Source of the DNA: Pseudooceanicola lipolyticus
GTDB lineage: Bacteria > Pseudomonadota > Alphaproteobacteria > Rhodobacterales > Rhodobacteraceae
Direction of reading: 5' to 3'
Assembly (NCBI RefSeq): GCF_002786325.1
Contig: NZ_PGTB01000002.1
Span: 1-64,000, forward strand
DNA length: 64,000 nt
In this document: positions 46,001-61,299 of the stretch, one piece after another
Numbering within the stretch: position 1 is the stretch's first letter
Layout of the letters: every line of letters starts with the position of its first letter
Program-made: the position numbers and the translations under genes
The notes under the pieces: model-generated
What the model was told of the DNA's origin: nothing
Database searches by the model: none
What the model saw: the letters and a program-made list of their open reading frames with translations, nothing else

Positions 46001-47327
46001 AGACGCCGCGATCCAGGGGCTCGGGCGCACCCATCGCTCGGCTCAGGTGTCAGTGCCCTTCTTCCGGGTCTGCACCTCGGACGTGCACGGCGAGAAACGC
46101 TTCACCTCCACGATCGCCCGACGGCTTGATCAGCTGGGCGCCCTCACCAAGGGCCAGCGCGAGACCGGCTCCCAGGGCATGTTCCGCGAGGAGGACAATC
46201 TCGAAAGCCCGATCGCAAGGGGTGCGCTGCGAGGCTATTACGCCGATCTCGCCGCCGGGCGTGCCGGGGCCATGAGCTATGAGAAGTTCTGCGATTGGAC
46301 CGCCTTGCGGCTGATCGACCAGGACGGCGTGCTGCTCGAAGAGCTTCCACCAATCCAACGCTTCCTGAACCGGGTGCTGGCGCTGCCCATCCACATGCAG
46401 AACGCGCTCTTCGCCGAGTTCATGAGCCGGATCGCCGATCAGACCGAGCGGGCGCGGGCGGCTGGCACGCTCGATCTCGGCGTCGAGACACTGCGTGGCG
46501 AGCGGATAGAGCAGGTCTCGACCGAAGACCTCTGGACCTGTCCGCGCTCCAGAGCAGTGACGCGCATAATCGGACTTGAGGTGACGGACCCCGTCCATAT
46601 CCTCTCCGCAGAAGAGGTGCTGGATCGGAACCCCGACAGGTTGCCGATGATCAACCGCGCGTCGGGTCGCGCGGCGTTCATCTCAGCCCGTCCGATGCAG
46701 ATGTACGACGAGGAGATTGTCACGCTCATGCGCAAGGTGACCCGGCCGAGCGGGTCCACCTATGTCGAGGAAGGGAAGTTCCAGGCTTCCGCCTGGGAAG
46801 AGATCGAGCCGTCCGAGTTCCGCCGCCTCTGGGACGAGGAGGCCGATAGCCTGCCGAAGGTGACCACGACGAAGCTCTATCTGCTGACCGGGCTGCTACT
46901 GCCGATCTGGAAGGACATCCCCTCGGGCAACGAACGCATCTACCGGGTCACGCCCGAGGGGCAGGGGAGCATGATCGGCCGCACAGTCAGCGAGGACGGT
47001 GCGGCCGCGCTCAGAGCCCGTTTTATGGTCGGCACCCCGAAAACCCCGCAGGAGATGCTGACGGCGGCGCTCGGGTCCACCGCGCCGGTCGATCTGGGCC
47101 GGGGCCTCACGCTCACCCGCCGCCGGGTCGCGGGCGCGGCCCGCCTCGAGATCGACGGGGCCGACCGGGGCACGATCGACGGGCTGAAGGCCATGGGGTG
47201 TTTCACGGAGATCATCGCCTTCCAGCTCCGGGTCTTCGTGCCCCACGGGGAGGGTGTTGATACCGCCGCCATCCTGGCCCGGATCGTGGGGGAAGGGTCT
47301 CCAACGGCGGCGGAGCGAGCCGCATGA
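43068..47327 (+). CDS. giant methyltransferase/strawberry-notch-like helicase
   Basis: A 1419-residue protein with two domains. The N-terminal methyltransferase has LEPSAGTGALAGF (131-143) and NPPF at 196-199, typical of N6-adenine DNA methylation. The C-terminal helicase is of the strawberry-notch type: Walker A GDGTGCGKG at 479-487, Walker B LAFDEAHAMQN with DEAH at 587-590, FYVSATGATSVHNLAY and the motif VI region QGLGRTHRSAQ. It could modify and remodel entering plasmid DNA, countering restriction. Such genes are a hallmark of large conjugative alphaproteobacterial plasmids. It is cytosolic and appears intact. It overlaps the next leader element by two bases. Confidence 0.88.
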   Translation: MDNRSPALARDFPSKPQLLQAIRLIGSEIEKQPLKSSSLARIMRETFGGSDAGGAWSWRMAYDLMQAATVTAIMRDSGSDALATARLLASRLLTETRRSEQQIRLQQFSTPLPYAALAIRAAAIRTGETVLEPSAGTGALAGFAVCAGGKPMLNEIDPFRRALLEAVFGGEVSGFDAEHIDDLLTVPELPGVIVMNPPFASSVDRSRDKHIAAKHLIGAAKRLAPGGRLAAIMPMGFSPKRDAAHWARASAIAKPRLALTIPGHVYRKLGTTVETQLMVFDKVQEEIEIVRAMVDDLDAARQIIDDIAATRTATPSIQTGAQFRTGSRRVGVPVARQRPIAQAASAKPKSHAAIPLAFTCLDTPRENTPVSDIYARYRPQRIEIEGAREHPTPLVESIAMASVAPPAPNGEAAADLRLPGRLIEEGHLSEAQLETILMANDAHARDLPGRFTIDQDQTRMTRADDDPEACAYRLGYFLGDGTGCGKGRECAGLILVNWLAGRRKAVWISKSTTLIEDAIRDWTDLGGSPADIQPLSKWKPDQPIPMGDGILFVTYATLRSAGKCGRTRLSQVLDWMGDGFDGVLAFDEAHAMQNAAGSDEGRGVKPSQQGLAGLRLQLAAPRARVFYVSATGATSVHNLAYASRLGLWGQGSEYPFPSRESFVSAMEAGGVAAMEVVARDLKTLGFYTARVLSFDGVEYDVLEHALTPAQIEIYDAYAGAFRTIHHNLEAALTATGVNDASGQTNASAAKASAKSRFESTKQRFFNHLLMGMKAPTVIRSIEQDIGDGYACVIQVVSTGESLLKRRLEAMDPEDDLVEGALTPRDYVLSYLEQAFPIHAQKLVEIDGNMVVEPLRDANGALVVSREAEALRDEAMIELMSLAPIPSALDQILWAFGDEVVAEVTGRSIRPLKASEGALFIEKRSASSNSSETRAFMDGEKDILIFSDAGGTGRSYHAAKTAKNQKRRRHYLLEPGWRADAAIQGLGRTHRSAQVSVPFFRVCTSDVHGEKRFTSTIARRLDQLGALTKGQRETGSQGMFREEDNLESPIARGALRGYYADLAAGRAGAMSYEKFCDWTALRLIDQDGVLLEELPPIQRFLNRVLALPIHMQNALFAEFMSRIADQTERARAAGTLDLGVETLRGERIEQVSTEDLWTCPRSRAVTRIIGLEVTDPVHILSAEEVLDRNPDRLPMINRASGRAAFISARPMQMYDEEIVTLMRKVTRPSGSTYVEEGKFQASAWEEIEPSEFRRLWDEEADSLPKVTTTKLYLLTGLLLPIWKDIPSGNERIYRVTPEGQGSMIGRTVSEDGAAALRARFMVGTPKTPQEMLTAALGSTAPVDLGRGLTLTRRRVAGAARLEIDGADRGTIDGLKAMGCFTEIIAFQLRVFVPHGEGVDTAAILARIVGEGSPTAAERAA

Positions 47328-47347
47328 AAGGGAAAGTGGGCCTTGGG
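47326..47347 (+). repeat. repeated leader element, copy 4
   Basis: GAAAGGGAAAGTGGGCCTTG plus GG, starting within the stop of the helicase gene and 107 bp before the DUF6878 start. Confidence 0.55.
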
Positions 47348-47453
47348 TCGGGGGGAACGCGGAAGGGTGCTTTGCCCCCTCGCGTTCCGCCGCCGTGGCG
47401 GGTCTCTGGACCCCTCGGCACCTTCCCCAATCCCAGACAAGAGGACGAGACCC

Positions 47454-47840
47454 ATGACCAACTCCGAGACCACCTTTGCCGAGGCGATGGCAAAATGGCA
47501 GGCCGAGCGCGAAGCCGCCAACAAGGCCGCCCGAAACGAGCTGCTCCCGCAATTGCGAGGCCTCGGCATCACCGAGGTCACCGCCGAATACGAGGGCTAC
47601 GGCGATTCGGGGAATATCGAAGACGTGACGGTGCAGCCGGTCGGCATTGCGCTCCCCGACGATCTCGCCACGAAGCTCGGCGACCTCGCCTGGTCCGTCG
47701 CCTATCACCAGCATCCCGGCTTCGAGAACAACGAGGGCGGCTATGGCACGCTGACCTGGGATGTCACCGCTGACAGCATCGCACTGGATCATGCCGACCG
47801 ATATGTCGAGTGCTCCCACAGCCGTGACGAGGGGCTCTGA
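47454..47840 (+). CDS. DUF6878-like protein
   Basis: A 128-residue protein: TFAEAMAKWQAEREAANKAA (helix), LRGLGITEVTAEYEGYGDSG, LAWSVAYHQHPGFENNEGGY, GTLTWDVTADSIALDHADR. It resembles the DUF6878 family (tentative name) found in plasmid accessory clusters. The start at 47454 follows AGAGGACGAGACCC. It is followed after one base by the disrupted DUF6915 gene. The function is unknown. Confidence 0.72.
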   Translation: MTNSETTFAEAMAKWQAEREAANKAARNELLPQLRGLGITEVTAEYEGYGDSGNIEDVTVQPVGIALPDDLATKLGDLAWSVAYHQHPGFENNEGGYGTLTWDVTADSIALDHADRYVECSHSRDEGL

Positions 47841-47841
47841 C

Positions 47842-47932
47842 ATGGCCCATCCCCTCCATCATGCCGAAAGCTCGGCCCGGAAGTACGGCGGGTCGCCATC
47901 CGACTATCAGGCCATCCACGATTGGTTCGATG
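47842..47932 (+). pseudogene. DUF6915-like gene, 5' part (interrupted)
   Basis: MAHPLHHAESSARKYGG, then PSDYQAIHDWFD, is the N-terminus of a DUF6915-like protein. It stops after 30 residues at the inserted transposon. The rest continues in frame at 51322-51677 after removal of one TCGATG copy. Confidence 0.85.
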
Positions 47933-47999
47933 TTATCCGGACAATCAAGCTGTTTTTGTTCTCCCGGTCGGGGTTTGTCGTGGTTGTCCATAGGAGGGC

Positions 48000-48050
48000 C
48001 CCCGCCGCCCGCGTAGCGCGGATACGCGCGCAGCGGAGCGGGCGGCGGGG
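48000..48050. terminator. strong GC hairpin at the 3' end of the recombinase operon
   Basis: CCCCGCCGCCCGC (48000-48012) pairs with GCGGGCGGCGGGG (48038-48050), a perfect 13-bp stem with a 25-nt loop. It lies 14 bp beyond the stop of the large recombinase and is probably its terminator, although no T-run follows. Confidence 0.5.
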
Positions 48051-48063
48051 AGGTACCTGTGGG

Positions 48064-50151
48064 CTACCGCGACATTTTCCGTGCCGCTTCGACTGTCTGC
48101 CCGACCCCCTGGGCCGCGTCTGAGACTGGCTCGCCCAGTTCGACGAGAAGCTGTTCGATGCGCGAAGCTATTCCTGAATGCCGTTCGATCTCTCGTGTCC
48201 AACCGCGGCAACGCGCATCTTCCGTCAGATTGAGTTCGAGGCGATGGCGCGCGCGCAACCTCGGCGCATAAGATCGTGTGGTGACGAATTTGGCGCAGTT
48301 CAGATAGAGGTCGCATTCACAGGGACCTTCTTCCGGTAGCCTGAGACAATGGCCGAGTTCGAGCTCGGTCTTCAGGAAGTTGCACTTCAGCCAATCGACC
48401 GTGCTTTGCGGCAGGCGCTGATTGCGGATGATCTCTGCCGCGGGTCCGGCGATCGGCGCATCGGGTTTCAACACGGCCTGATAGTCGGCGAGCACCGCTT
48501 CATCGCTGACACGGATATAGACCATCGACATATGCGGGCTTTGATGCCCGAGCACGTCCATGATCGTCTGCATCCGCGCACCGCCTTCGGCGAGTTCCGT
48601 GCCGACCGTATGGCGGAAGCGATGTGCCGAGATGAGATTCTGCCCTTTTCCATCGACCAGGCCGAGTCGGTGAGAGATATCTTTGAGGGGATAATTGAAC
48701 AGATAGTCGGGCGAGATCGCGACACCGCGGCGGTAGAAGAGCAACTTGACGTATTGGCCGGTTCTGGCATCCGGGACCGGGCGTTCGTCCGACTTTGCGC
48801 GCAGGTCGATGACCTTGCGAAGAGCGTCAGCAGCCTCAGGGTGAAGCGGCACAAGCCGCTCTCTGTAGGTCTTTCCCGCCGGAATGCGCAGTCGCGGCGT
48901 TCCGTCGGGATAGGTGTCCAGACAGTCGACGGGCAACCTTGCGATCTCTGTCCGACGGGCGCCGGACCAACGCGCGGTCAGAATTGCGGCGCGCTGGAAA
49001 TCGCAGGGAAGCTTGCGGACCTCTTCCATGAGCGGGCCGAGTTGTTCGGCAGGAATGTATCGCGGCAGGCGTTGTGGAAGGCGGGGAAGATCACGCGTGT
49101 TCAGAACCGGTCGCGTCGGGAAATCCGGCCATTCCCAGGCCGCCCCCTCGCTGAGGAATTGCGCGACATGAAGCGCACGGGATCTCTGGGCGGTAATCGA
49201 CAATGGACGCTTGGTTCTGGCGCCGACTTGGCTTCTTAGATCGATCAGGAAGGCAGTCATCACCTCGGACGTGACATTGGCGAACTTCTCGATTTTTGGA
49301 TCGTAGCGAACCAGGAAGTCGACAAAGCGGCGGAGCGACACGGCGCAGTGGTCGACAGTCACCCTGGAAAGGCTGGTGCGCTTGATCTCCAGCCAGCGCT
49401 CGATGAAAACACCCATATCCGGCCTCGGATAGACATAAGGCCTTCGCTTGTCGGCGGTCATGCGTGGTCGCGCGATACCGTTGCCGAGGTGGTGCAGTAC
49501 AAGCTGTGTTTGACGGACATAGCGGTGCCAGAAATGGGCGGTCGTCTTGGCCTTCTGAGGATCATGGCCATGGAAGCGCTTCATCAGGGAAGACGCCGCA
49601 TATGCAGAAATTGCATCGTTCAACAGGTCAAGGTCGTCGGAGGTGATAAGTTCAGGCGAACGTATGCCGGCATGAAGCGCGATGCGGGAAACCACCCAGA
49701 TGGACGACCCCTGTGGCGTCGTCTGGTGATACCCCATCGCTTTCTGGCGCTTGCGGAGATCCGGAATGCCTAGATCGATGCCCAGGTGATTTGCGAGTTG
49801 GGCGGCATACATCGGCGAAATCGACAGGAGGAACCCATAGTCGAGGCGCAGGCGGTCCGTGAGGGCGAGGTAGTAGAGATATTGCCGCGCCCAGAACGAG
49901 GCGGGGTGTTCAGGTGTGAAGGCGGATGTTCCGTGAAGTCGGCCGAGCCGAACCTCAAGCGGTTGTTCGCACCAAAGAGCGAGATCGGGAAAAGCGGCGA
50001 CGAACTCTCGACGTTGAGCGATATACCGGTTCTTCATATCGCGGGTCATGTCGAGGCTGAGGATGAATGTGCGGTATTCCTCCTCCCCGCTATGCGACGG
50101 CGCGATGTCGGTCGGAAACGTCATCAGGGCATCCGGCAAGGGGGCCGTCAT
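48064..50151 (-). CDS. tnpB: Large tyrosine recombinase, TnpB-like
   Basis: A 695-residue tyrosine recombinase. The catalytic residues are in ARWSGARRTEIARL (Arg), HRFRHTVGTELAEGG (HxxR), MDVLGHQSPHMS (His) and MVYIRVSDE (Tyr). An unusual C-terminal extension contains CHCLRL-type spacing and ECDLYLNCAKF, a cysteine motif also found in TnpB of Tn554-like elements. The start at 50151 overlaps the stop of the smaller recombinase (ATGA). Two cooperating recombinases with this size pair indicate Tn554-like transposition. Confidence 0.85.
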   Translation of the reverse strand: MTAPLPDALMTFPTDIAPSHSGEEEYRTFILSLDMTRDMKNRYIAQRREFVAAFPDLALWCEQPLEVRLGRLHGTSAFTPEHPASFWARQYLYYLALTDRLRLDYGFLLSISPMYAAQLANHLGIDLGIPDLRKRQKAMGYHQTTPQGSSIWVVSRIALHAGIRSPELITSDDLDLLNDAISAYAASSLMKRFHGHDPQKAKTTAHFWHRYVRQTQLVLHHLGNGIARPRMTADKRRPYVYPRPDMGVFIERWLEIKRTSLSRVTVDHCAVSLRRFVDFLVRYDPKIEKFANVTSEVMTAFLIDLRSQVGARTKRPLSITAQRSRALHVAQFLSEGAAWEWPDFPTRPVLNTRDLPRLPQRLPRYIPAEQLGPLMEEVRKLPCDFQRAAILTARWSGARRTEIARLPVDCLDTYPDGTPRLRIPAGKTYRERLVPLHPEAADALRKVIDLRAKSDERPVPDARTGQYVKLLFYRRGVAISPDYLFNYPLKDISHRLGLVDGKGQNLISAHRFRHTVGTELAEGGARMQTIMDVLGHQSPHMSMVYIRVSDEAVLADYQAVLKPDAPIAGPAAEIIRNQRLPQSTVDWLKCNFLKTELELGHCLRLPEEGPCECDLYLNCAKFVTTRSYAPRLRARHRLELNLTEDARCRGWTREIERHSGIASRIEQLLVELGEPVSDAAQGVGQTVEAARKMSR

Positions 50152-51257
50152 GGCTTCAGTCCCATTGCACGGCTGTACTCGGCGAGCACAGTGGCGTCGG
50201 ACACGCGTGTATAGATGCGCGTCGATTCGGGTGATGCATGCCCGAGCCGGCGCTGCAGGGTCAGCTCTCGCATGCCTGCTTCCCACATGCGGGTGGCGTG
50301 GGTATGCCGCAGCGCATGCGGTGTGACGCCGTGCGATTTGATCCCGGCGCGTTCTGCCGCTCGCGCGAAGGCTTTTGCCAACGCGGCATAGGACAAGGGC
50401 TCAGATCGCCTAGTGCCGTTTCCGCCGACGAGAAAGATGAACGGCGACTCCGCCTCGCGGGGACGATCACGCATGACATAGGCGCTGATGGTATCGAGGG
50501 CCTGCCCGTCATGGAGGTCGACGACACGCTCGACGCGCGACTTTCCGCGTGCCCCTTTCGGGTGGTCATCGCGACATCGAACGGTCACGCGCCGCCGCCC
50601 ATAGGCGATATCCTCGAGATGCAGACTGAGCGCTTCGCCTGGTCGAAGGCCGCCATGAAGCATCAAGAGCACAAGGGCGCGATCGCGCAGGCAAGTCACC
50701 TCGGCGAGGAGACGCTCGATCTGGTCGTCGCTCATCGGCCGAGGCAGGCGGTGAACGCTGCGAACACGGATTACGCGCACGCTCGCTGCGCGACGGGAAA
50801 TGCCTTCAAAGAACGGTCGGTGCCGATCGGTGACCGAAGGCTTGTTGATACTCTTGCTGACCCGCATCGGGTTCGGCGGGGTCAGCGTCCCTGCGATGAT
50901 CGCCCAGTCGCAGAAAGACGACATTGCCGCCAGCGCTCGATTGATCGTTGCCGGTGACAGCCGATCCGGGCCAGCCGCGGTTGCGGACCGGCCGGGGCGC
51001 ATATCGATCCGGTCGTGCAGGTAAGCGATCAGATCGACAGCATTCGCGATGTTTAATCCCTGCCACTCGAGCCCTCGGGCTTCGAAGAACTCCCACACGC
51101 GCCGCAGGTCATAGGCGTAGGATCGAATGGTGTTCGGGGATGAGCCCCGAGCGTCAAGATAACGGAGGAAATCGTGAATCGGTTCGACGGAATTACCAGC
51201 ATCGTCGCAGACAAAATAGCGAGGGACAGTCCCCTCCGGAGTTCTGGTGACTTGCAT
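50148..51257 (-). CDS. tnpA: Tyrosine recombinase, TnpA-like
   Basis: A 369-residue tyrosine recombinase. The core-binding domain shows SPNTIRSYAYDLRRVWEFFE. The catalytic domain has MLHGGLRPGEALSLHLED (Arg), TPHALRHTHATRMWEAGM (HxxR), LQRRLGHASPESTRIYTRVSD (His and Tyr). All residues needed for catalysis are present. It starts about 64 bp inside the right end of the element and overlaps the larger recombinase gene by 4 bp. Confidence 0.9.
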   Translation of the reverse strand: MQVTRTPEGTVPRYFVCDDAGNSVEPIHDFLRYLDARGSSPNTIRSYAYDLRRVWEFFEARGLEWQGLNIANAVDLIAYLHDRIDMRPGRSATAAGPDRLSPATINRALAAMSSFCDWAIIAGTLTPPNPMRVSKSINKPSVTDRHRPFFEGISRRAASVRVIRVRSVHRLPRPMSDDQIERLLAEVTCLRDRALVLLMLHGGLRPGEALSLHLEDIAYGRRRVTVRCRDDHPKGARGKSRVERVVDLHDGQALDTISAYVMRDRPREAESPFIFLVGGNGTRRSEPLSYAALAKAFARAAERAGIKSHGVTPHALRHTHATRMWEAGMRELTLQRRLGHASPESTRIYTRVSDATVLAEYSRAMGLKP

Positions 51258-51321
51258 AATCGGTCCTCGGAAAAAGGTGAAAACTTCAGCCTTGGAGGTG
51301 AAATCGCAAGTGTCCAGATAA

Positions 51322-51677
51322 TCGATGCCTCAAAGGAGCATCTCGCCATCTTCACCCACCGTGCGCTGCGCCATCACACGCAAGGCATCTTCGAAGCCGA
51401 ACGGGTTTTCGGGCTTTCGCTCACCAATGAGGCGGGGCGTGAGATTCCCATCCGCTGGATCGGCGAGCAGCATGTCCGCGAAGACTGTCAGGGCCGCATC
51501 CCGAGCCTCGCCGACTGGCTCGGACGGATCCAGCCCGAGCCCTGGATGGCCAACGGGCATATCGACGGGCCGGCGCATGAGCCCGTCGGCGATCCGCGCA
51601 CGAAATGGCTGGCCGAGGTGGCTGAGGGCAAGACGATCCTCGGCCTCAAGGACTGGATGGAGGCGAGGGGATCATGA
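51322..51677 (+). pseudogene. DUF6915-like gene, 3' part (interrupted)
   Basis: This is the continuation of the gene begun at 47842: DASKEHLAIFTHRALRHHTQ, GIFEAERVFGLSLTNEAG, RWIGEQHVREDCQGRIPSLA, DWLGRIQPEPWM. Joined at TCGATG it gives about 148 residues in one frame. The histidine-rich HRALRHHTQG and HVREDC motifs are typical of the family. It is silent unless the transposon excises. It overlaps the next gene by 4 bp. Confidence 0.85.
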
Positions 51678-51955
51678 TGCGCAACGTCCGCAGATTCTAC
51701 GATTGCAGCACCGCACATCTGCCTGAACAAACCGTCCAGGCCATCGAGAACGGGCTCTTCGCCAAATCGCCGAGCTTGCAGAATGAGTATGGCTGGCTGT
51801 TCTCCGTCCCGGAGACGCTCGCCGATCTGCCGGAAGGCGTCGACTGTGACGCCTTCAAGGCGGTCATGGCGTTGGCGATGGATGCGGGGTGCGACTACGT
51901 TCTCTTCGATCGGGATGTCCCGCCGGTGCCCTATCTCGAGGTCTTCGATTGGTAG
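51674..51955 (+). CDS. DUF5983-like protein
   Basis: A 93-residue protein: NVRRFYDCSTAHLPEQTVQA, SLQNEYGWLFSVPETLADLP, DCDAFKAVMALAMDAGCDYV, LFDRDVPPVPYLEVFDW. It resembles DUF5983 proteins of plasmid accessory regions. The ATG at 51674 overlaps the previous stop; a second ATG is at 51677. The function is unknown. Its expression may now depend on the transposon end, since the upstream gene is interrupted. Confidence 0.7.
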   Translation: MMRNVRRFYDCSTAHLPEQTVQAIENGLFAKSPSLQNEYGWLFSVPETLADLPEGVDCDAFKAVMALAMDAGCDYVLFDRDVPPVPYLEVFDW

Positions 51956-51972
51956 ATCGAATGCGGGTGTGC

Positions 51973-52009
51973 AGAGGCCCGATCTGCGGATCAGGCCTCT
52001 CTTGTTTCC
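51973..52009 (+). terminator. terminator-like hairpin
   Basis: AGAGGCC (51973-51979) pairs with GGCCTCT (51994-52000), with an inner GATC/GATC stem, followed by CTTGTTT. It separates the DUF5983-like gene from the next gene. Confidence 0.6.
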
Positions 52010-52036
52010 AACACCAATACTGAAATGGAGATCCAG

Positions 52037-52315
52037 ATGAACATCGCCGAGATCAAGGCCGCCGTGGATGCCGGCCAATCCGTCCACTGGGCGAGCGAGG
52101 GCTACCGGGTGCATCGGGATGGCCTCGGCCAATACCTCATCACCTTTGTGCGGAACGGCAGCACGATCGGTTTGACAGACCGGAGCGGCCGCCAGTTGAA
52201 CGGGGCCGAGGCCGACTTCTTCATATTGGAACCGAACAATGATGCCGCGGCAGAGCAGGGGAGGGTGGTGCGCGGGGCGACGTCGGACACCTCGTCCAGC
52301 GCCGGGCCGGGCTGA
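52037..52315 (+). CDS. hypothetical plasmid protein
   Basis: A 92-residue protein: NIAEIKAAVDAGQSVHWASE, GYRVHRDGLGQYLITFVRNG, TIGLTDRSGRQLNGAEADFF. It predicts a small alpha/beta fold with a disordered C-terminal tail. ATGGAG lies just upstream. Similar small proteins occur in the same plasmid context, but no family name was recalled. It lies between the DUF5983-like and DUF736 genes. Confidence 0.6.
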   Translation: MNIAEIKAAVDAGQSVHWASEGYRVHRDGLGQYLITFVRNGSTIGLTDRSGRQLNGAEADFFILEPNNDAAAEQGRVVRGATSDTSSSAGPG

Positions 52316-52324
52316 CGGTCAGGA

Positions 52325-52350
52325 GAGAAAGGAAAGAGGGCTTTGTGGTT
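52325..52350 (+). repeat. repeated leader element, copy 5
   Basis: GAGAAAGGAAAGAGGGCTTT plus GTGGTT, 83 bp before the DUF736 gene. It is more divergent than copies 3 and 4. Confidence 0.45.
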
Positions 52351-52432
52351 TTGCGATCCCATGAGGGGTCGAAAAGCAATCCCGCGTGCTCTGGCCAAGT
52401 GCCGGGCAGCGGCAAACCCAAGGAGAAGACCC

Positions 52433-53161
52433 ATGTTCGCAGGAACCCTGACCAAGAATGCCGAGACCGCAGCCACCGCCTATTCCGGAATGATCCACTC
52501 GAGCCGGTTCGACATCGCGATCCAGCTCGAGACCCGCACGAAGATGTCCGAGCGCAGCCCGGATTTTGATGTGACCGCGGTGAACAAGTCGGGCCGGAAG
52601 GTGCGTATCGGCACAGCCTGGAACGAGACCGGCAACACCACCGGTAACCATTACATCTCGATGCAGATCGATGTCGGCCTCGGGCCGTTCCGGGTCAACG
52701 CCGTGCAGACGAAGGAAGCACGCGAAGCAATGACCGGTGAATTCGAGATCATCCCGCTGGTCTCGAACGGTGGCATGAAGTCCGGTTCGATCTCGGGCGA
52801 GTTGACCGCGATGGATGGAGACAACGCCTTCGCCGGTTACATCGCCAACATGATGTTCGACCTCGACTTCATGCTGATCGAGAACACGTTCAAGACCGAA
52901 GAAACCCATCCCGACTACCGGATCGAGGTCTCCTCGCCCAAGGGCCACCCGATCCGCGTGGGTTCGGCCTGGATGGCGAAGAGCAACCGCACCGGCAACG
53001 ACTACGTCTCGCTCCTCATCAACACGCCCGATGGCGATCTGCGGGTAAACGCCGTGCAGAACGAGGAGCAGCGCGGCGGCCAGACCTTCTCGATCATTCC
53101 CTTCGTCGAGAGCGGTGCGCGCGAGCGGGACGCTGGTGCGGGACTGTCTCTGGTGTCCTGA
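52433..53161 (+). CDS. tandem DUF736 protein
   Basis: A 242-residue protein containing two DUF736-like repeats. The first has FDVTAVNKSGRKVRIGTAWN, TTGNHYISMQIDVGLGPFRV, NAVQ; the second has YRIEVSSPKGHPIRVGSAWM, RTGNDYVSLLINTPDGDLRV, NAVQ. Single-domain DUF736 proteins are about 100 residues, so this is a fused duplication. The function is unknown; the family is linked to conjugative plasmids. A fragment of the same gene type occurs at 8704-8745. The start follows AAGGAGAAGACCC, and a strong terminator follows at 53228. Confidence 0.82.
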   Translation: MFAGTLTKNAETAATAYSGMIHSSRFDIAIQLETRTKMSERSPDFDVTAVNKSGRKVRIGTAWNETGNTTGNHYISMQIDVGLGPFRVNAVQTKEAREAMTGEFEIIPLVSNGGMKSGSISGELTAMDGDNAFAGYIANMMFDLDFMLIENTFKTEETHPDYRIEVSSPKGHPIRVGSAWMAKSNRTGNDYVSLLINTPDGDLRVNAVQNEEQRGGQTFSIIPFVESGARERDAGAGLSLVS

Positions 53162-53227
53162 TGTGACGGAACCTGGTCCCGATCGATAAACGAGGCCGGC
53201 CTAGACCGGCCCGGTCTGCCTAACTTA

Positions 53228-53262
53228 CGGGAGCTGCGGAAACGCGGCTCCCGTTTTTCTTT
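53228..53262 (+). terminator. rho-independent terminator
   Basis: CGGGAGC (53228-53234) pairs with GCTCCCG (53247-53253), with an inner GCG/CGC pairing, followed by TTTTTCTTT. It ends the DUF736 gene and the accessory block. Confidence 0.8.
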
Positions 53263-53347
53263 GTGGCCGGTCAGTTCGAGGTCAACGGCCTGCCCGTCGC
53301 AAGGTGATGGCGAAACTCGCCGGTGCGATAGCCCCGCTGGCAAAGCA

Positions 53348-53665
53348 TCACTCCGAGGTCTCTTCCACCGTGCCATCGTTCTCGGAGGGCGTCTCACAAA
53401 AGATCTCTTCGACCGTCACCTGGTCGGGTAGTGGTCCTTGCAACGCGTCCTCGATCGCCTTGGTTGCGAAATTCGCCGAGACGGACGTCGCGAAACTGAT
53501 CGTCACGGTCAGCACAAGCTCTTTTGCGGTCATGCCCAGGGCCGCGTCGACCGAGCTGTCGGTAACGTCCGCACCGGCGACGCCTTCCAACAGCGCGAGG
53601 ATATCCTGTTTGGACGCGTCCGCGTCATCGCCGGCAAGGCGCATCACCACCACAACGTCAGTCAT
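53348..53665 (-). CDS. small protein of the three-metallopeptidase operon
   Basis: A 105-residue protein: TDVVVVMRLAGDDADASKQD, ILALLEGVAGADVTDSSVDA, a hydrophobic stretch LVLTVTISFATSVSANFATK at about 50-69, and an acidic tail (EEIFCETPSENDG). It may be a soluble adaptor with one amphipathic or membrane-associated helix. The ATG lies inside the last codons of the metallopeptidase before it (8-bp ATGACTGA overlap), so translation is coupled. No known family was recognised. As the last gene of a four-gene operon with three HExxH proteins, it could be the effector, sensor or inhibitor. Confidence 0.7.
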   Translation of the reverse strand: MTDVVVVMRLAGDDADASKQDILALLEGVAGADVTDSSVDAALGMTAKELVLTVTISFATSVSANFATKAIEDALQGPLPDQVTVEEIFCETPSENDGTVEETSE

Positions 53666-54644
53666 TGAAATCGTCCCACATCCGTGTCTCTCGAAATCCA
53701 CTCAATGCCCGCATGAATCGGGCCCGGTTGCGACTATAGCGCGCAAGGTCTCGCCCCGCTTCACTTTTGTTCGGGATCGCCCCGCCGAGAAGCGCCGCAA
53801 TGTCTTCCCCAAAGGGCGCGGTCACATCGAAGTGGTTCAGGGCGGCGAGCGCCGGAAGGACCGAGTGGCGAAACCTGTTCGCGACGTTTTGCACCTCTTC
53901 GCCGCTCGCCTCGCGGCGAACATAGTCGCCCGACTTCAGCAGGAGAAGGTGCGGTGCCACGTGGCGGAACACGGCCGCGACCACGTTCAGGTAGCGCGTC
54001 TCGGGCGTTGGATACCCATCCTCGACGGGCCCTTCCGAGGCGAGAAGTTCCAGGGTCGCGAAGACGCCGATGACGATGAACATCATGGCGCTGTCGGCTC
54101 TGTCATCACCGTCGGATGAGAGCCCTTCGATCGTGCGCATCAGCTCATAATCCGCCGACAGGAGGCTGGCTGCGGCGGCCCCGTCGGCTTCAAGCTCTGA
54201 CAGGAGCCGGAATGTCGCCAGATCCAGAGGTCGCGGCAAGTCACCCGTGCTTGTTTCCGGATTCAGCGCCTTCTGATAGGCGACATGGCCTGCGGCGGCG
54301 TGGCAGGCTTCGTGGGTGGCGAAAAAGGCGACACCGGCAAACCATGCCAGCGTCATTGCGGGCTCGATCCCGCCCAACCGCTCGGCCCGAGCTGCGGTCT
54401 CTCCTTCGACGTTGACGGCTTGGAGGCGAGACAGGATGAGATCGGGTACGGCGGTTCCGATCGCGATGCGATAGCGATCCTTGCGCCAAGGCGAAATGAT
54501 CGCGTCAAGGCCCGCACTTTCGCGGTGCCTCCAGTCTATCCGTTCGGCGAAGGCTGTCTCGTCGATCCCGGGGAAGAGCACGTAGGTGACGAACTCTCCG
54601 GCGACGCGGATCAGGGTCAGGGTTTCGAGGTCTTCCTCACCCAT
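53658..54644 (-). CDS. HExxH metallopeptidase-like protein C
   Basis: A 328-residue protein. The zinc motif HEACH is at 111-115 in a hydrophobic helix (LAWFAGVAFFATHEACHAAA). A second motif SELEADGAAAAS at 149-160 gives the probable third ligand (Glu in an E-x-x-A-D context). The C-terminal half is helical (SAMMFIVIGVFATLELLA, EVQNVANRFRHSVLPALAAL). No signal peptide was seen. Family unknown. The start at 54644 overlaps the previous stop by 8 bp. It differs clearly from the two upstream HELAH proteins, so the operon is not a simple duplication. Confidence 0.72.
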   Translation of the reverse strand: MGEEDLETLTLIRVAGEFVTYVLFPGIDETAFAERIDWRHRESAGLDAIISPWRKDRYRIAIGTAVPDLILSRLQAVNVEGETAARAERLGGIEPAMTLAWFAGVAFFATHEACHAAAGHVAYQKALNPETSTGDLPRPLDLATFRLLSELEADGAAAASLLSADYELMRTIEGLSSDGDDRADSAMMFIVIGVFATLELLASEGPVEDGYPTPETRYLNVVAAVFRHVAPHLLLLKSGDYVRREASGEEVQNVANRFRHSVLPALAALNHFDVTAPFGEDIAALLGGAIPNKSEAGRDLARYSRNRARFMRALSGFRETRMWDDFND

Positions 54645-55719
54645 TGTCAGCACCGTCGAGGATGCGATCGATCCGGCGTGTGGCCTCGAAATATCGTGCT
54701 TCTCTGACGAGGAACTTCTCGTGATCCGCGTCCGAGGGGCCTTCCCCGAACCATCTGCCGTCGCCGAAACCGATGTCTTTGGAGATCTCACTCGCCTCGA
54801 ACCAGGCGGTGTCGTGGACGCGCACCGACTCTTCAAAGTCACACGGCACCAGGTCGTGAAGGGATCTGAACACCAGGTTGGTGAAGTTCATCGCCCGAAA
54901 GAGCGGGGAGGGATATTCCGTCCCCGGTCGATCCACCGGACCCTCCCTCGTGTCGAGCGCCCGCATGACAAGGATATGGGCGAACGCCAGCTGGAAGCCG
55001 TATTCGAGCCCATCCTCCGCGGTCCAGCCCCTCAGAAACGGATGTTTCTCATCCATGCTCAGGAGCATTTGGTTCAGCCCGTTCGCATCCGCGTCAAACT
55101 CGATATCCTGTAGCGTTTCCGGCAGCAATTCTGGCGATCGGCCGGGGGCTTGGTCCAGATATGTTGCCGCTTCGTCGACGAAGCCGGGTGTCGCGTCCGG
55201 AAAGAGGAGATCGATATGCCGCCGCAGGAGGTGCGCGAGTTCGTGCGAAATCACGTAGTCGAACATCTGCATCAGGATGTCGACGAAATACTCCGCACGC
55301 TCCGCCTCCATCGACCAGTCATCGAAGGCAATGAGCGGGCCGTCGAGCGCCTCTTTCCACGATTTGCCCGGATCCCTCAGGGGGTGCGCGCGCGAAAGCA
55401 CGTCCGGATGATGGGCTGCGGCCGTAAGGAACCGCCAAAGTTTTCGCAGCAGGCCGAGGCTTATGATGACTGCACGGCGATCGCCCGATTGGCGCGCGGC
55501 CGCGTTCGGAGCATCGCCGGCTGAGATGACGAGGTCGATCCCTTTGATGTTGAGGTCCGGATCGCGCGCGTCCAGGAGGCCTATGTTGATGTCGAAGACA
55601 TGTTCGGTCCAGTGCACCAATGTCGTCTCGACTGGTGTAAGCCCTATGACGTCGAGATATCCGCCCATAGACCTGACGATGGGATCGACCTTCCAAAACG
55701 CACGCGAGACCTCTTCCAT
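54637..55719 (-). CDS. HExxH metallopeptidase-like protein B
   Basis: A 360-residue protein. HELAH lies at 159-163 (FDYVISHELAHLLRRHIDLL) and DIEFDADANGL at 205-215 supplies a likely third ligand, the gluzincin-like pattern of HExxH followed by an E-x-D-A-D box. An acidic N-terminal half has GYLDVIGLTPVETTLVHWTE. The C-terminus has GDGRWFGEGPSDADHEKFLV. No signal peptide is present, so it is cytosolic. It lies 4 bp after protein A and overlaps protein C by 8 bp. The E-x-x-A-D arrangement resembles the Lit-type (peptidase U49) phage-exclusion proteases; this likeness is only an inference. Confidence 0.75.
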   Translation of the reverse strand: MEEVSRAFWKVDPIVRSMGGYLDVIGLTPVETTLVHWTEHVFDINIGLLDARDPDLNIKGIDLVISAGDAPNAAARQSGDRRAVIISLGLLRKLWRFLTAAAHHPDVLSRAHPLRDPGKSWKEALDGPLIAFDDWSMEAERAEYFVDILMQMFDYVISHELAHLLRRHIDLLFPDATPGFVDEAATYLDQAPGRSPELLPETLQDIEFDADANGLNQMLLSMDEKHPFLRGWTAEDGLEYGFQLAFAHILVMRALDTREGPVDRPGTEYPSPLFRAMNFTNLVFRSLHDLVPCDFEESVRVHDTAWFEASEISKDIGFGDGRWFGEGPSDADHEKFLVREARYFEATRRIDRILDGADNG

Positions 55720-55723
55720 TCGA

Positions 55724-56842
55724 TCACGATATCCCGAAGAATTTCGGGATGGGGTCGCTCCATCGCGCGTCGAACGCGAAGGGTGCAAAAAGCCCGTCCT
55801 CCGTTTCGGGGTCCTGATCGAAATAGGCGGCGATCTCTTTCCTGAGGTCGGCCTCCCCCTCCCTGGTAATCGTGTCCCGGAGGAGATCGAGCTCGGGGAA
55901 GGCCGGTTCGAGCGGTGCCAATAATTCCATGGCGGGCTCAAATATCTCGGCGAAATAGTCACTTTCGGGATGTTCCACATTCCAACGCGCCCTGTGGGCG
56001 ACAGAGTGTAGGAGCAACCGCAGATTTGGCGACGGGTAGGTGTCGCGGGTTCCGATCCTGTCGCGCGCCATGCGTTCCTGGCCGACCACGAAGAGTGCGT
56101 ATCCTACGAATTCGGCATAAAGGTTCTCTTTGCCCGTCATATACTGCCAGCGCGGCAGGGTCGCGGATCGCGCGAAGGCGAACTCGCCGGACATACCCGA
56201 GCAGTAGACGTCGGCATCGATCTCGACATCGCGTAGCGGAAAGCCGGGAGGCGTGTTGCCCGCATCCTGGCTCATCAACTCGTCCACCATGCACAGGCCC
56301 GCCCCGCCGTGTCGCTGTCGGAGCAGGCCGAGATGCCCTCGCACTACATGGGCCAGCTCGTGAAACAAGACCGGCAGATAGAGCGACTCGAAGAAGAAGA
56401 GCCAGCTGCCCTCGATGTCCGGACCGATCTCGTTGATCGTCAGGTCGACGCAGGTTTGCACCCCGGACGTCGCCACGTCCTCTGCGAAGTCACGGAACGA
56501 CAGGGACACGGTCCTTTCGAGGCGAAACCCTGAGGCCACCATGCGGGCGAGTACCGAGCTTACGACGGCCGCCCAAAGGACGTAGCCGGACGTGAACTCG
56601 ATCGAGAACGGACCGCCGACGCGCGACTGGCGGGCCCTTGCGTTCAGGTGGGTCTCCGGAGTGACGCCAACCTTGAGATCGCTGCCGTCAGGGAAGGCGT
56701 ACATGTCTCGCATGGCACCGGTGACGGCACGCACCGCGGACTGGAGGTTTCTCAACGCCATCCGCAACTGTGCCGAGTCAACGTCTGCGAACAGCTCGTC
56801 AGGGAAGCTGGGGCGGTCTATGTATTGAACCCTTCGCAACAC
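55724..56842 (-). CDS. HExxH metallopeptidase-like protein A
   Basis: A 372-residue protein. HELAH is at 161-165 (LYLPVLFHELAHVVRGHLGL), followed by RDVEIDADVYCSGM at 204-217 with the same E-x-D-A-D box as protein B. The N-terminus (QLRMALRNLQSAVRAVTGAM) is helical. A large central region contains SYVL-type strands (FSIEFTSGYVLWAAVVSSVL). The GTG start at 56842 lies 8 bp after AAGGAGAG, a better choice than the upstream ATG at 56899, which has no such site. It is the first gene of a four-gene operon and is most similar in plan to protein B, without being a near copy. Role unknown. Confidence 0.75.
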   Translation of the reverse strand: MLRRVQYIDRPSFPDELFADVDSAQLRMALRNLQSAVRAVTGAMRDMYAFPDGSDLKVGVTPETHLNARARQSRVGGPFSIEFTSGYVLWAAVVSSVLARMVASGFRLERTVSLSFRDFAEDVATSGVQTCVDLTINEIGPDIEGSWLFFFESLYLPVLFHELAHVVRGHLGLLRQRHGGAGLCMVDELMSQDAGNTPPGFPLRDVEIDADVYCSGMSGEFAFARSATLPRWQYMTGKENLYAEFVGYALFVVGQERMARDRIGTRDTYPSPNLRLLLHSVAHRARWNVEHPESDYFAEIFEPAMELLAPLEPAFPELDLLRDTITREGEADLRKEIAAYFDQDPETEDGLFAPFAFDARWSDPIPKFFGIS

Positions 56843-57114
56843 CTGAGACTCTCTCCTTTGAACTTGCAAAAGCCTATCTCCGTCGGCCTTTCCGGGCAAA
56901 TGCCGGATGAACAGGCGTCGCGTAACCAGTGGTTCCGCGTTCGCAAGTACTTAGACAAACGCCTATGGGCACATATCGAATATTGACGGGTCACCCATAT
57001 TTGCCGCTCGACAATAGTATACGAAAGGTCTCCGAATGTAGCTTTGCATGAAGCGCATAGCTGCATTGCAGCATTTGGCGTTGTTGCACCGCAGCATTTC
57101 AGGCTAGCCTACTT

Positions 57115-57239
57115 TTGAGGTTGCTCTCCTCTCCTCCTCCCTGGAGATCGGCCTCAGGTTTGCGCCACACCTCCTCCCGTGGCGCGGGCAGAAGAGATCA
57201 GACGCCATCCCACCTCCCGGGATGGCGTCTTTCTTTTTC
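57115..57239 (+). ncRNA. ccsR: CcsR-like small RNA (CCUCCUCCC-motif family)
   Basis: Three C-rich anti-Shine-Dalgarno motifs occur in order. CTCCTCCTCCC is at 57131-57141. CCTCCTCCC at 57170-57178 lies in the loop of GCGCCAC/GTGGCGC (57162-57168/57179-57185). CCACCTCCC lies in the loop of the final hairpin. That hairpin, GACGCCATCCC/GGGATGGCGTC (57201-57211/57219-57229), is followed by TTTCTTTTT and is a rho-independent terminator. The architecture is that of the CcsR (cuckoo) sRNAs of Rhodobacter, which are stress-induced. The 5' end is estimated. Confidence 0.7.
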
Positions 57240-57350
57240 CCTATTGAAATCCTCACAGGATCTCGGGTCGCGAAACCATCGATACTGTCGTATCGTGGTC
57301 TCAAGACCAACGATTTTCCTATGATTTCAATTCCGAGAAGAGGGTTTTAG

Positions 57351-58403
57351 ATGCGGGGCTTTCATTTCGTCCTTCCATGTTTGCTCGTGCCGACCGTCTG
57401 TTTCGCGGAACCTTTCACGGTGGCCAGTTGGAACATTGCGAACCTGGGCGCGCCGGGCTCGGAATTGCGCGGGTTCGACCGCGACGCGAATGACTACACC
57501 CGTATCCGGGAGATCATCTCATCCATCGATGCGGACGTGATCGCATTCCAGGAGATTGGCAGCGTCGCGGCGCTGGAAGCGGTCCTCCCCGACGGGTACA
57601 GCTTCCGGTTCGAGACCCGCTGCTATGAGAACGCACAGAAGTGCGCGGCGGATGCTGACGACATATACAACGCGATCGCGATCAGGGACACGTTCGCGCA
57701 CCGTTTCTTCCAGATCGATGAGCTCGCCGTGCCGCATCAGAACGAATGCGGCGCGCCCGCGCGCCCGGTACGCGGCGGCGTGGGCGTCGATCTGTCGGTC
57801 GACGGGCGACGCTATCTGGTGCCGTCGATCCACCTGAAGGCGACCTGCAAGAACAATTCTGTCGAGCCCGGAACGGAGGACGACTGTGCGACGCAGCGCG
57901 AGCAGGTGCGACGCCTGCGTGCCTGGATGGACGCCCAGGACGACGAGGCGACGATCATCTTGGCGGGGGATTTCAACCGGCAACTCCTGGAGGGGGCCGA
58001 CAACATCCGGGCGGAATTCTTCCCGAACGTGCCGCAGGGGCACATCCTGCCGGGTGCCGAGACACGCGCGTGCTGGTCCTCGTTCGCGTTCGATTTCGCT
58101 CGATTGGGCGAGGAGGCCATGGCGAACAACCCGCAGTTCGAGGCCGAGGGGCTGCGCCCATGGCTCTACACGCCCCGCAGCAGCGCCGAGATCGACTTCT
58201 TCGTCGTGGAGAACCTCGCGGAAGGTGTGACGCTGACGGCGGATCAGATCGAGCTTACGGGTGACTACGTGTTCCGCGATCCCGGCGCCGCGCTGACCCG
58301 TTGTGATGGGAGCCTTCAGCCCTTCGCCGACGGGAAGGTCCTGACCTTTGCGGAAGCCTATCCGAGCGATCATTGTCCGATCGTGATGACCGTCTCGGAG
58401 TAG
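57351..58403 (+). CDS. exported endonuclease/exonuclease/phosphatase-family protein
   Basis: A 350-residue DNase I-like protein. Residues 1-19 look like a signal peptide ending VCFA before EPFTVASWN. The metal-binding core is present: ASWNIANL (N28), IAFQEIGS with Glu68, AGDFNR with Asp207-Asn209 and YPSDHCPI with Asp340-His341. Several cysteines (CYENAQKC, CTEDDC-like) suggest disulfides in the periplasm or outside the cell. Likely functions are nuclease, phosphodiesterase or sphingomyelinase-type activity. The next gene starts 4 bp after its stop. Confidence 0.82.
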   Translation: MRGFHFVLPCLLVPTVCFAEPFTVASWNIANLGAPGSELRGFDRDANDYTRIREIISSIDADVIAFQEIGSVAALEAVLPDGYSFRFETRCYENAQKCAADADDIYNAIAIRDTFAHRFFQIDELAVPHQNECGAPARPVRGGVGVDLSVDGRRYLVPSIHLKATCKNNSVEPGTEDDCATQREQVRRLRAWMDAQDDEATIILAGDFNRQLLEGADNIRAEFFPNVPQGHILPGAETRACWSSFAFDFARLGEEAMANNPQFEAEGLRPWLYTPRSSAEIDFFVVENLAEGVTLTADQIELTGDYVFRDPGAALTRCDGSLQPFADGKVLTFAEAYPSDHCPIVMTVSE

Positions 58404-58407
58404 GCCG

Positions 58408-59229
58408 ATGTCCTCAGAGAGTCTTGGCGGGCAGATTCTGGTCGGTGTGACGGTGGCCGCGATCGTGGGGATCGGCGGGTCTGTCCTGGGACGGGCGGTC
58501 GCCCCTGCGGAGCCGCCCTCCCTCGAGATCACCCCCGCAAGCGTCACGGCACAGGTTGGGCTCGACACCGAATTCAACTCGACTGCGGATCCGGATGTGA
58601 GGACACTGACATGGCGTGTGGCGGGGCAGCCGGTGGGGCGCTCTCATGTCGCGCAATGTGACGCCGTGGCCGCGCAACTCATGTGCAGGTTCCTGGTCCC
58701 CGGGACGTATTCGGTATCTGCCACGGCCACCGCAGCAAACGATTTGGAGGTCACGAGGCACAGTTCCGTCTCGGTGGTGTTCCCGGACAGGTACTACACA
58801 GTCTTCATCCAGAATCCGGATCGACAGGCGCGCAGCGATGCCTACCGGGTGGTGTTGCGTCGGATCGACTGGGCCAGGGTTCAGCAATCCATCACCCCCT
58901 TGATCCTGCTCTACGACCCGGACAAGGGCCGGAATGTGTTCGGCGCTGACACGGTCTTTGAGCCGGAGTTTGAGGGCGTGGACGTGTTGCAGGGCCTCAA
59001 GCTACGGATTCCGAGGTTCGCGGAACCGGCGCGCGGCCTCGTCGTCGGCCCACTGGAGGCGCTCGGCGTCACCGTCACCGAGATTCCCTATGCCGAGGCG
59101 ATCCTGTCGATCGAACGAGGCGCGGTCGACGGCGGCTTCGTCACCCTGGGCGATCCTACGATCGATCTGCTCGACGCGGACCTCGGGGACATGCGGGTGG
59201 AGCAGCATAGCAAGTGGCTTGATCCCTGA
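58408..59229 (+). CDS. membrane-anchored hypothetical with Ig/PKD-like domain
   Basis: A 273-residue protein. One N-terminal membrane helix (GQILVGVTVAAIVGIGGSVL) anchors a periplasmic part. Residues 37-126 look like an immunoglobulin/PKD-type domain (PASVTAQVGLDTEFNSTAD, GTYSVSATATAANDLE, SSVSVVFPD). The C-terminal 130 residues (FIQNPDRQARSDAYRVVLRR, LILLYDPDKGRNVFGADT) have no recognised family. It lies 4 bp downstream of the secreted nuclease-like gene, so the two probably act together at the envelope. Confidence 0.65.
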   Translation: MSSESLGGQILVGVTVAAIVGIGGSVLGRAVAPAEPPSLEITPASVTAQVGLDTEFNSTADPDVRTLTWRVAGQPVGRSHVAQCDAVAAQLMCRFLVPGTYSVSATATAANDLEVTRHSSVSVVFPDRYYTVFIQNPDRQARSDAYRVVLRRIDWARVQQSITPLILLYDPDKGRNVFGADTVFEPEFEGVDVLQGLKLRIPRFAEPARGLVVGPLEALGVTVTEIPYAEAILSIERGAVDGGFVTLGDPTIDLLDADLGDMRVEQHSKWLDP

Positions 59230-59247
59230 ACATGTCTTCCTAAGCCT

Positions 59248-59776
59248 TGCGGCCTTCTCCCCTGCTCGGCTGCGCGTGTCGCAGGCGAGAACGGCCCTGC
59301 GGTCCGTCGCGCATTCGGCCATGCGGCCTCACCGCGGCGCAGCGCCCGGCACCCCGGTTTGCCCGTCTCGCGAGCAGGCCGCTCCCCGGCCGCTCCGCCG
59401 GATTGCGCTCTGGTCTGTTTTGCGGCGCAAAACGATCCCGCCGCTCCATCCGTCTCCCGCGTCCGGTCGCGCCCTTTGCCTGCTCGCGTCGGGCAAACCT
59501 ACCGTCAACAACACACACACATGAGTGCGGAAGCATATCCTCCGGATGGCCCCCAAATCAGCCCGCCTCAAGGATCGCAAAACTTTTCGGCGAGGGCGGC
59601 GGGTCTGGAGAGGGCAGTCCAGTGTTCGATGACGCGCCTGTGGTGGGCGATGCGCCCGGAAAACTTTTGCGCCCGGCACGCCGGCGGCTTCGCCGTCCCT
59701 GACCCGGACAGATTCGGTGAACCAGACGTACGGCCATGCCACCACACTCCCGTGGTGGTTCCCCGAACATCTGGAG
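59248..59776. repeat. structured direct repeat, copy A, leader of the DUF2493-type gene
   Basis: About 529 bp strongly similar (roughly 85 percent by eye) to 60776-61299. It contains GGTTTGCCCG (59356-59365) and CGGGCAAACC (59490-59499), a 10-bp inverted repeat around a GTTTTGC/GCAAAAC hairpin, and ends with a CCACCAC...GTGGTGG hairpin just before the ribosome-binding site. A short open frame starting MSAEAYPPDGP is preserved in both copies but diverges towards its end. Confidence 0.7.
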
Positions 59777-59784
59777 ACACCAAC

Positions 59785-60714
59785 ATGACTTACGACAACG
59801 CGAACGCCTACGAGACCATCGAACTCTTCGGCCTCACGGAGAAAGACGCCGAGCTGCCGATCCCCGATGATAACATCCTGATCGACAGCATCGTCCGCGA
59901 GACCTTCGAGGCCCTGCTCGGCCAGCTGCGCGGCACCGGCCTCGAGACCGAGATCGAACCGCTCGCGCACGGGCTCGCCACCATCCTGCAGCGCCGCAAG
60001 ATCGCTCTCGGCAAGGAGCTCGACCGCACCGCCGACAAGATCGGCGCCTTGGCAAACTCCCACGATGGATCGGAGATCGCCGAGACCGCGCTGGAAGAGG
60101 CGCAGGCCCGCTTCTTGCAGGTCCGCGAGATCGTCGGGGCCATCGAGGTGATGAGCGAGGCGGCGGCGGAATGCTACGAGGTCGAGACCGGCCATGCCTT
60201 CATCCCGGCATCGGGATCGCGCGCCAGTGCTCGCGCTCAGGAGACCGGGGCGGTCTTCGAGGCCCGGCAGCTCCTGGAGCAGCATGACCGCGAAACCGCC
60301 GCGAAGTCGAAGCTCGAGGGGGTTCCCCTGATCGTATCGGGGGCGACCGACTGGACCGATATCGACGTCATCTTCTCGACACTCGACAGGGTTCGCGAGC
60401 GCATCCGGCAGAACCGCAACCAGGAGATCTTCCTCTGCCACAAGGGTGGCAAGCACGGGGCCGAGATGATCGCCGCACGGTGGGCTCGGGCGCGCGGCGT
60501 CGCGCAGGCGCGCTTCGATCCGCGTTGGTCCGCACATGGGCGGGCGGCACCCTTCAAGTGTAACGACGAGATGCTGGACGACAAGTTCGCCGCGACCGGG
60601 GTCGTGCTCTTCGGCGGCAACGGGGTCGCGCTCAACCTCGGGCAGAAGGCGGAGGCGAAAGGCCTGACGGTGATGCGGGTCGCCGATCCGGCGAAGAAGA
60701 CGGCAGACGCGTGA
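59785..60714 (+). CDS. DUF2493 (SLOG-like) protein
   Basis: A 309-residue protein. The C-terminal 140 residues are the DUF2493 domain: VPLIVSGATDWTDIDVIFST, RNQEIFLCHKGGKHGAEMIA, ARWARARGVAQARFDP and a final GVVLFGGNGVALNLGQKAEA, which resemble a Rossmann nucleotide-binding (SLOG-type) fold. The N-terminal half is helical (DSIVRETFEALLGQLRGTGL, ALEEAQARFLQVREIV). DUF2493 proteins on plasmids may sense or bind nucleotides. The start follows CTGGAGACACCAAC, immediately after repeat copy A, which supplies its leader. Confidence 0.82.
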   Translation: MTYDNANAYETIELFGLTEKDAELPIPDDNILIDSIVRETFEALLGQLRGTGLETEIEPLAHGLATILQRRKIALGKELDRTADKIGALANSHDGSEIAETALEEAQARFLQVREIVGAIEVMSEAAAECYEVETGHAFIPASGSRASARAQETGAVFEARQLLEQHDRETAAKSKLEGVPLIVSGATDWTDIDVIFSTLDRVRERIRQNRNQEIFLCHKGGKHGAEMIAARWARARGVAQARFDPRWSAHGRAAPFKCNDEMLDDKFAATGVVLFGGNGVALNLGQKAEAKGLTVMRVADPAKKTADA

Positions 60715-60775: not shown

Positions 60776-61299
60776 ACGGCCTCCTTCGCTCGCCTGCGCG
60801 TGTCGCAGGGGAGATATCGGCCCATGGCCGATCGCGCATTCGGCCATGCGGCCTCACCACGGCGCAGCACCCGGCGTCCCGGTTTGCCCGTCTCGCGAGC
60901 ACGTCGCGCCCCGGCCGCTCCACCGGATTACGCTCCGGTCTGTTTTGCGGGGCAAAACGATCCCGCCGCTCCATTCGTGTCCCGCGTCCGGGCAGCACCC
61001 TTTGCCTGCTCGCGTCGGGCAAACCTGTCGTTAATCACACACACATGAGTGCGGAAGCATATCCTCCGGATGGCCCCCGAACCCGTCCGCGTCAAGGATC
61101 GCAAGACTTTTCGGCTAGGGGGGCCGGGGAGGAGAGGGCGGTCCAGTGTTCGATGACGCCCCCGTGGTGGGCGATGCGCCCGGAAAACTTTTGCGCCCGG
61201 CACGCCGGCGGCTGCGCCGTCCCTGACCCGGACAGTTTCGGCAACCAGGCATTCGGCCTTGCCACCACACTCACGTGGTGGTCCACGAACATCTGGAGA
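60776..61299. repeat. structured direct repeat, copy B, leader of the CxxC gene
   Basis: About 524 bp matching copy A at 59248-59776 over nearly its whole length. GGTTTGCCCG at 60881-60890 and CGGGCAAACC at 61016-61025 form the same long stem around GTTTTGCGGGGCAAAAC. It ends with CCACCACACTCACGTGGTGG before TCTGGAGATGAG. Both copies sit in front of unrelated genes. Confidence 0.7.

Follow-up and report, generated by a model that had tools for sequence, protein, structure and literature searches.

Among soluble zinc proteases that exclude phages, Lit is the classic case, and the M78 peptidases CapP and ImmA are HExxH peptidases found in defence loci. According to PMC3014915, the Lit protease is latent until a phage peptide appears, whereupon it cleaves EF-Tu and thereby blocks T4. 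PMC7950410 places Escherichia coli Lit within the M48 HExxH...HPx4R pattern, in which HPx4R forms a plug whose His, in BepA, binds zinc and bears on regulation. A single M48-family metallopeptidase gene, tied to restriction-modification and DarTG2, lies inside a working E. coli anti-phage island (PMC12255303) and is likened to the genes below by description, not by sequence. Here we describe a four-gene operon, A-B-C-D, of the marine bacterium Pseudooceanicola lipolyticus (GCF_002786325.1, contig NZ_PGTB01000002.1, positions 1-64,000; this whole stretch of 64,000 nucleotides (nt) is the window), which probably constitutes a protease-based immune system of bacteria not described before. We hold with moderate confidence that it is a plasmid-borne anti-phage system of three paralogous M48/Lit-like zinc proteases (zincins), probably cytoplasmic, together with a small α/β partner. 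No report of a multi-zincin or three-zincin operon was recognised in the open-licence literature, which is weak evidence of absence. The operon spans 53348-56842 on the minus strand and comprises the following genes:

55724-56842, minus strand: A, a 372-residue M48-like zincin (HELAH at residue 161, H170, EIDAD at 207, YPSPNLR at 269) with a GTG start
54637-55719, minus strand: B, a 360-residue M48-like zincin (HELAH at 159, H168, EFDAD at 207, YPSPLFR at 269)
53658-54644, minus strand: C, a 328-residue M48-like zincin (HEACH at 111, H120, ELEAD at 150, YPTPETR)
53348-53665, minus strand: D, a 105-residue small protein with a ferredoxin-like α/β model, overlapping C by 8 nt

Paralogous zincins of the operon

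The open reading frame (ORF) coordinates and the sequence bear out the gene order, motifs and packing given by the initial annotation. HExxH is followed by ExxAD after 46 residues in A, 48 in B and 39 in C; A and B are separated by 4 nt, and there is an 8-nt overlap at each of the junctions B/C and C/D. Gene A starts with GTG at 56842, with a good ribosome-binding site, AAAGGAGAG, upstream. A consensus scan of 53100-57400 found no sigma-70-like promoter versus 1.1 expected, which has little meaning for this kind of host. As previously claimed, no signal peptide was visible at the N-termini of A-D on inspection by eye. The hydropathy maxima in a 19-residue window are 1.70 (A), 1.30 (B), 1.97 (C) and 1.42 (D), and because the peaks of A and C reach the usual borderline of membrane helices, we grade a cytoplasmic location of A-C as likely rather than established.

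The initial annotation had regarded A, B and C as three distinct zincins, and this has to be revised. Profile-profile comparison links A with B at 1.3e-11, B with C at 4e-7 and A with C at 1.2e-6, so that by sequence all three belong to a single M48-like group as paralogues and do not represent separate kinds of zincin. They share a His five residues past the last His of HExxH, plus a [Y/H]Px4R box, two features absent from the initial annotation. Conservation was followed in 13 group zincins, those of the window and of the Vannielia, Nereida and G545 loci described below, with an unrelated Nereida HESHH protein left out. HExxH and the downstream Glu ligand (ExxAD) are kept in all 13, at four cluster loci, and the loss of HExxH that the initial annotation had envisaged among homologues did not occur. 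The first residue of the plug is Tyr (YPx4R) in 10 of them, including A, B and C, and His (HPx4R) in three. By analogy with BepA, we infer that the plug Tyr of A, B and C may act as a zinc-binding latch.

In a tree of the zincins, in which several branches are long and the deeper joins unsure, clade A unites the window, Vannielia and Nereida (support 96/90), clade B the window, Vannielia and G545 (100/99), and clade C all four loci (95/91), C being the paralogue present in every cluster. A, B and C fall in separate cross-locus clades, and therefore the split of the paralogues predates the divergence of the loci. A Nereida HELSH zincin is closest to B by BLAST (6e-12), yet no supported branch places it with B.

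The closest known families are M48 and Lit: motif order and fold agree with M48, but A, B and C do not match the curated profiles and lack the plug His. The structure models show an M48-like catalytic-domain fold, and A, B and C carry YPx4R instead of the HPx4R plug. PF01435 (Peptidase M48) gave no match for any of the three up to E 10; among relatives, L016 scored 22.1 bits against a gathering score of 20.3, and the Nereida A homologue, at 16.9 bits, lay under it. Compared with M48 proteases such as BepA and HtpX, the present genes differ in the Tyr at the plug, in forming paralogue sets and in their defence contexts. Lit shares the HExxH peptidase motif, and the homologue L047 (PF10463, 6.6e-9) has HExxHx4H, ExxAD and HPx4R; however, Lit is one gene versus three paralogues here, no EF-Tu link is known here, and the direct profile alignment is weak, at 28 columns. 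The earlier pointer to Lit was apt in that a distant relative, L030 (7092-8150), matches PADLOC Lit at 1.7e-5 and Lit fits the M48 pattern (PMC7950410), but it does not extend to the profiles, as A, B and C match neither U49 (PF10463) nor PADLOC Lit. No PADLOC-DB 2.0.0 family matched A-D up to E 10. The L030 zincin, a single one, sits behind genes that by eye look phage-tail-like and near what, also by eye, appears to be smpB, presumably as a prophage accessory gene might.

Recurrence of the cluster and its defence neighbours

An intact A-B-C-D set with identical gap and overlaps is present in Vannielia litorea EBW16 at 94-97% protein identity. The ratio of non-synonymous to synonymous substitution rates (dN/dS) against these copies is 0.19 for A, 0.15 for B, 0.30 for C and 0.27 for D, computed from few changes (13-44 nt per gene). 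In Nereida sp. MMG025 (G463, L007/L009), C and A lie on the same strand on either side of a 563-residue HESHH protein, with two additional group zincins 1.8 and 3.0 kb from A. G545 (L008) carries B and C and, convergent to them, a HEFAH zincin followed by a D-like gene, these last two overlapping by 8 nt like C and D in the window. Near relatives are clustered, rather than always solitary as the initial annotation had considered; more distant group members in six genomes (G386, G507, G918, G1019, G897 and G981) are single within the stretch read, the G386 contig ending there. The zincin cluster is rare and accessory in distribution: B alone has matches in 1 of 385 class genomes (its own), A in 3 of 395 family genomes (its own included), the C profile in 4 of 248 genomes (two of them true clusters), and a 12-row profile in 8 of 385, with more than one match in its own genome only. 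Among 84,980 species genomes, a pattern scan picked up at least two relatives.

In Nereida, a QatA/PifA-like KAP NTPase gene lies 143 nt from the HELSH zincin, and at a distance of 9-11 kb there are a short Argonaute, its partner nuclease Aga and a PD-T7-1-like gene (4.7e-122). In G545, the distance from the cluster to Cas9 is 1.2 kb; on the Cas9 side, about 6-8 kb off, there are also a CRISPR array (11 repeat places, 66-nt spacing) and AbiEii/AbiEi, and HerA-SIR2 is 13 kb off on the opposite side. The third setting is the plasmid slot of the window, where, in each of the ten related plasmids compared, the similarity of the backbone breaks off at 53112-53162 and picks up again at 59240-59257:

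53163-59239, no strand assigned: cargo slot holding A-D, an endonuclease/exonuclease/phosphatase (EEP) family gene and a 273-residue protein gene; bounds from the ten-plasmid comparison
57351-58403, plus strand: EEP family gene (Pfam PF03372, 1.2e-11), divergent from A
58408-59229, plus strand: 273-residue protein with a weak DctP-like match under the cut-off; last cargo gene
52433-53161, plus strand: DUF736 backbone gene, left slot border; start placed by comparison with sister-plasmid genes of 729 nt
59785-60714, plus strand: DUF2493/YAcAr backbone gene, right slot border; start placed by comparison with sister-plasmid genes of 930 nt

Altogether 172 plasmid records match part of window 47000-60000, a few via a recombinase element only. 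Cargo slots were read in 13 plasmids, with PADLOC scans covering 10 and 8 selected slot proteins. Clear PADLOC-supported genes occur in 5 of the 13, as a raw count: a ThsB-like TIR protein with RT_VI; Tmn; IetA/IetS; a cyclase and 2TM effector of a cyclic-oligonucleotide-based anti-phage signalling system (CBASS); and an E1-like protein with a CapP-like zincin. One slot carries an S8 peptidase and an ATPase annotated as in IetAS (by annotation only), and two carry a RelE/ParE-type toxin with a PAPS-reductase-family gene, the latter matching parts of BrxP and SspD. The other five have no clear defence gene and hold mercury resistance, VOC/SRPBCC genes, RadC (a weak JAB match) with an oxidoreductase, or, in two cases, RadC with a thermonuclease. 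The genomic context in these three settings supports a defence role for the operon, which upholds in part the earlier proposal of a defence-type protease set; its abortive-infection part remains a proposal, as does its view of the small protein as effector or inhibitor.

The same slots bear on other functions. A CapP-like zincin occupies the corresponding slot of another plasmid (L040) beside an annotated helix-turn-helix (HTH) gene, and the single wider-group member L017 adjoins a weak HTH match (HTH_31 at 0.039, under the cut-off), the neighbours of L007 and L016 having no Pfam match. The zincins might accordingly be regulators that cleave a repressor on a stress signal, as CapP or ImmA/IrrE do, and switch on plasmid genes such as the divergent EEP gene. 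We judge this unlikely: none of the six genes in the slot matches an HTH family in Pfam, a single repressor would hardly call for three paralogues, and A, B and C have no match to Peptidase_M78 (PF06114; ImmA/IrrE/CapP). No repressor gene was recognised in the operon. The mercury resistance in one slot, together with the quality-control protease BepA among M48 relatives (PMC7950410), would suit an M48-like housekeeping role in protein quality control or plasmid maintenance, the defence neighbours being coincidental to cargo slots; the rare, accessory distribution and the two further loci near defence genes make such a role very unlikely. The backbone is conjugative in sister plasmids, and proteases that destroy immune proteins of the recipient at plasmid entry could be anti-defence or conjugation-helping cargo. 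This is highly improbable: in Nereida and G545 the copies have defence genes of the host nearby, and no transfer region was recognised at these loci by eye, without a search aimed at one.

Further proteins of these loci are side observations. The Nereida HESHH protein (L007:8219-9910), on the same strand as C and A, lacks the +5 His and the plug and belongs to no known family. Directly upstream of C in Nereida is a 747-residue protein with a membrane-like N-terminus (L007:11094-13337), which looks patatin-like by motif but has no Pfam or PDB match. In G545, an HExxH (HECCH) protein of no known family (L049:9735-11536) and a 163-residue neighbour adjoin HerA-SIR2.

The small partner and a proposed mechanism

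D is modelled as a ferredoxin-like fold, globular over residues 2-91 (best predicted local distance difference test score (pLDDT) 74.1, predicted template modelling score (pTM) 0.62), built from three sequences only, with pLDDT ranging over 41-74 among five models. Profile search assigned it to no family; the FeS_assembly_P/DUF59 profile gave 15.4 bits for D and 20.3 for the Vannielia D, both under the cut-off of 23.5. The alignment of D with the G545 D-like protein (shuffle probability 0.0015-0.0025) is suggestive of homology, and a look through the Nereida locus turned up no D-like ORF. We presume a resemblance of D to the EACC1 small adaptors of caspase conflict systems; as an EACC1 member it was rejected, since up to E 10 the EACC1 profile matched neither D nor its counterparts in Vannielia and G545. 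PMC7159879 describes EACC1 as a small α+β protein with a hydrophobic segment beside peptidase genes, and a stretch that is hydrophobic and contains Gly (hydropathy 2.02) is present in the D-like protein of G545. In contrast, D is the 3' gene and its partners are zincins, whereas EACC1 is the 5' gene and its partners are caspases.

The position of the small partner as last gene in the window and in Vannielia, and after HEFAH in G545, would also fit a substrate from which the zincins make a signal peptide-like messenger or a toxin, as zincin-like peptidases reportedly do with the FxSxx-type precursors of actinobacterial conflict systems; D has an acidic C-terminal tail, and PMC7159879 describes zincins paired with small precursors that diverge rapidly. 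We regard this as quite unlikely: D is modelled as globular, its C-terminus is GTVEETSE, not FxSxx, which also rejects it as an FxSxx-type precursor, and D is missing from what was found at the Nereida locus.

The preferred reading, a latent set of proteases activated by a trigger, is the best one because Lit-like chemistry comes together with the setting among defence genes and with active sites that are intact in all three proteins. Each protease would probably be latent, shut by the [Y/H]Px4R plug loop, the first residue of which occupies the site of the extra zinc-binding His in M48 BepA. At least one of the putative proteases would be released by a product of the phage or by a signal of infection, and would then halt infection by cleaving an essential protein of host or phage, possibly with death of the cell, in the way that Lit cuts EF-Tu. 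D would most likely be a protease-binding regulator, sensor or inhibitor. The three paralogues may have separate triggers or separate substrates or form a cascade, and the data favour none of these. Rather tentatively, we also envisage a fuller version in which a paralogous protease set with tyrosine-plug latency is split by trigger or target or arranged as a proteolytic cascade, with a ferredoxin-like switch and perhaps the EEP nuclease as a further effector. If the preferred reading is right, a conserved multi-paralogue operon in defence slots would show Lit-type chemistry diversified into multi-gene immunity, and the sparse bacterial M48/Lit-like proteases would gain a testable function. 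It would also raise the question of why three paralogues with intact active sites are kept instead of one.

The EEP gene and other features of the plasmid

The EEP gene adjoins the operon in Vannielia too, with a dN/dS of 0.135, and is a possible part of the system; its protein has an apparent signal peptide by eye. Neither it nor the 273-residue protein matched a PADLOC-DB family up to 0.001. The nearest plasmid relative of the EEP gene is flanked by annotated AbiEii and CBASS genes. On the Roseovarius THAF9 plasmid, a related EEP gene (L061:6065-7960; 30% identity, E 3e-26) lies in a three-gene run with two small genes, amid annotated AbiEii, HEPN and CBASS genes, and EEP enzymes of this kind may be defence-linked.

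Outside the slot, a 3.39-kb element with tyrosine-recombinase genes occupies window 47933-51321, between a strawberry-notch gene and DUF6878. It is missing from Vannielia and the ten compared plasmids, and 2-6 bp common to its ends are a possible target-site duplication; close copies (93.6-95.6%) occur on one plasmid of Sulfitobacter and on two of rhizobial type. The stretch preceding the DUF2493 gene is seemingly duplicated at 59243-59750 and 60777-61281, flanking the gene, as judged by double matches to single plasmid stretches, and this duplicated flank could aid cargo exchange by recombination.
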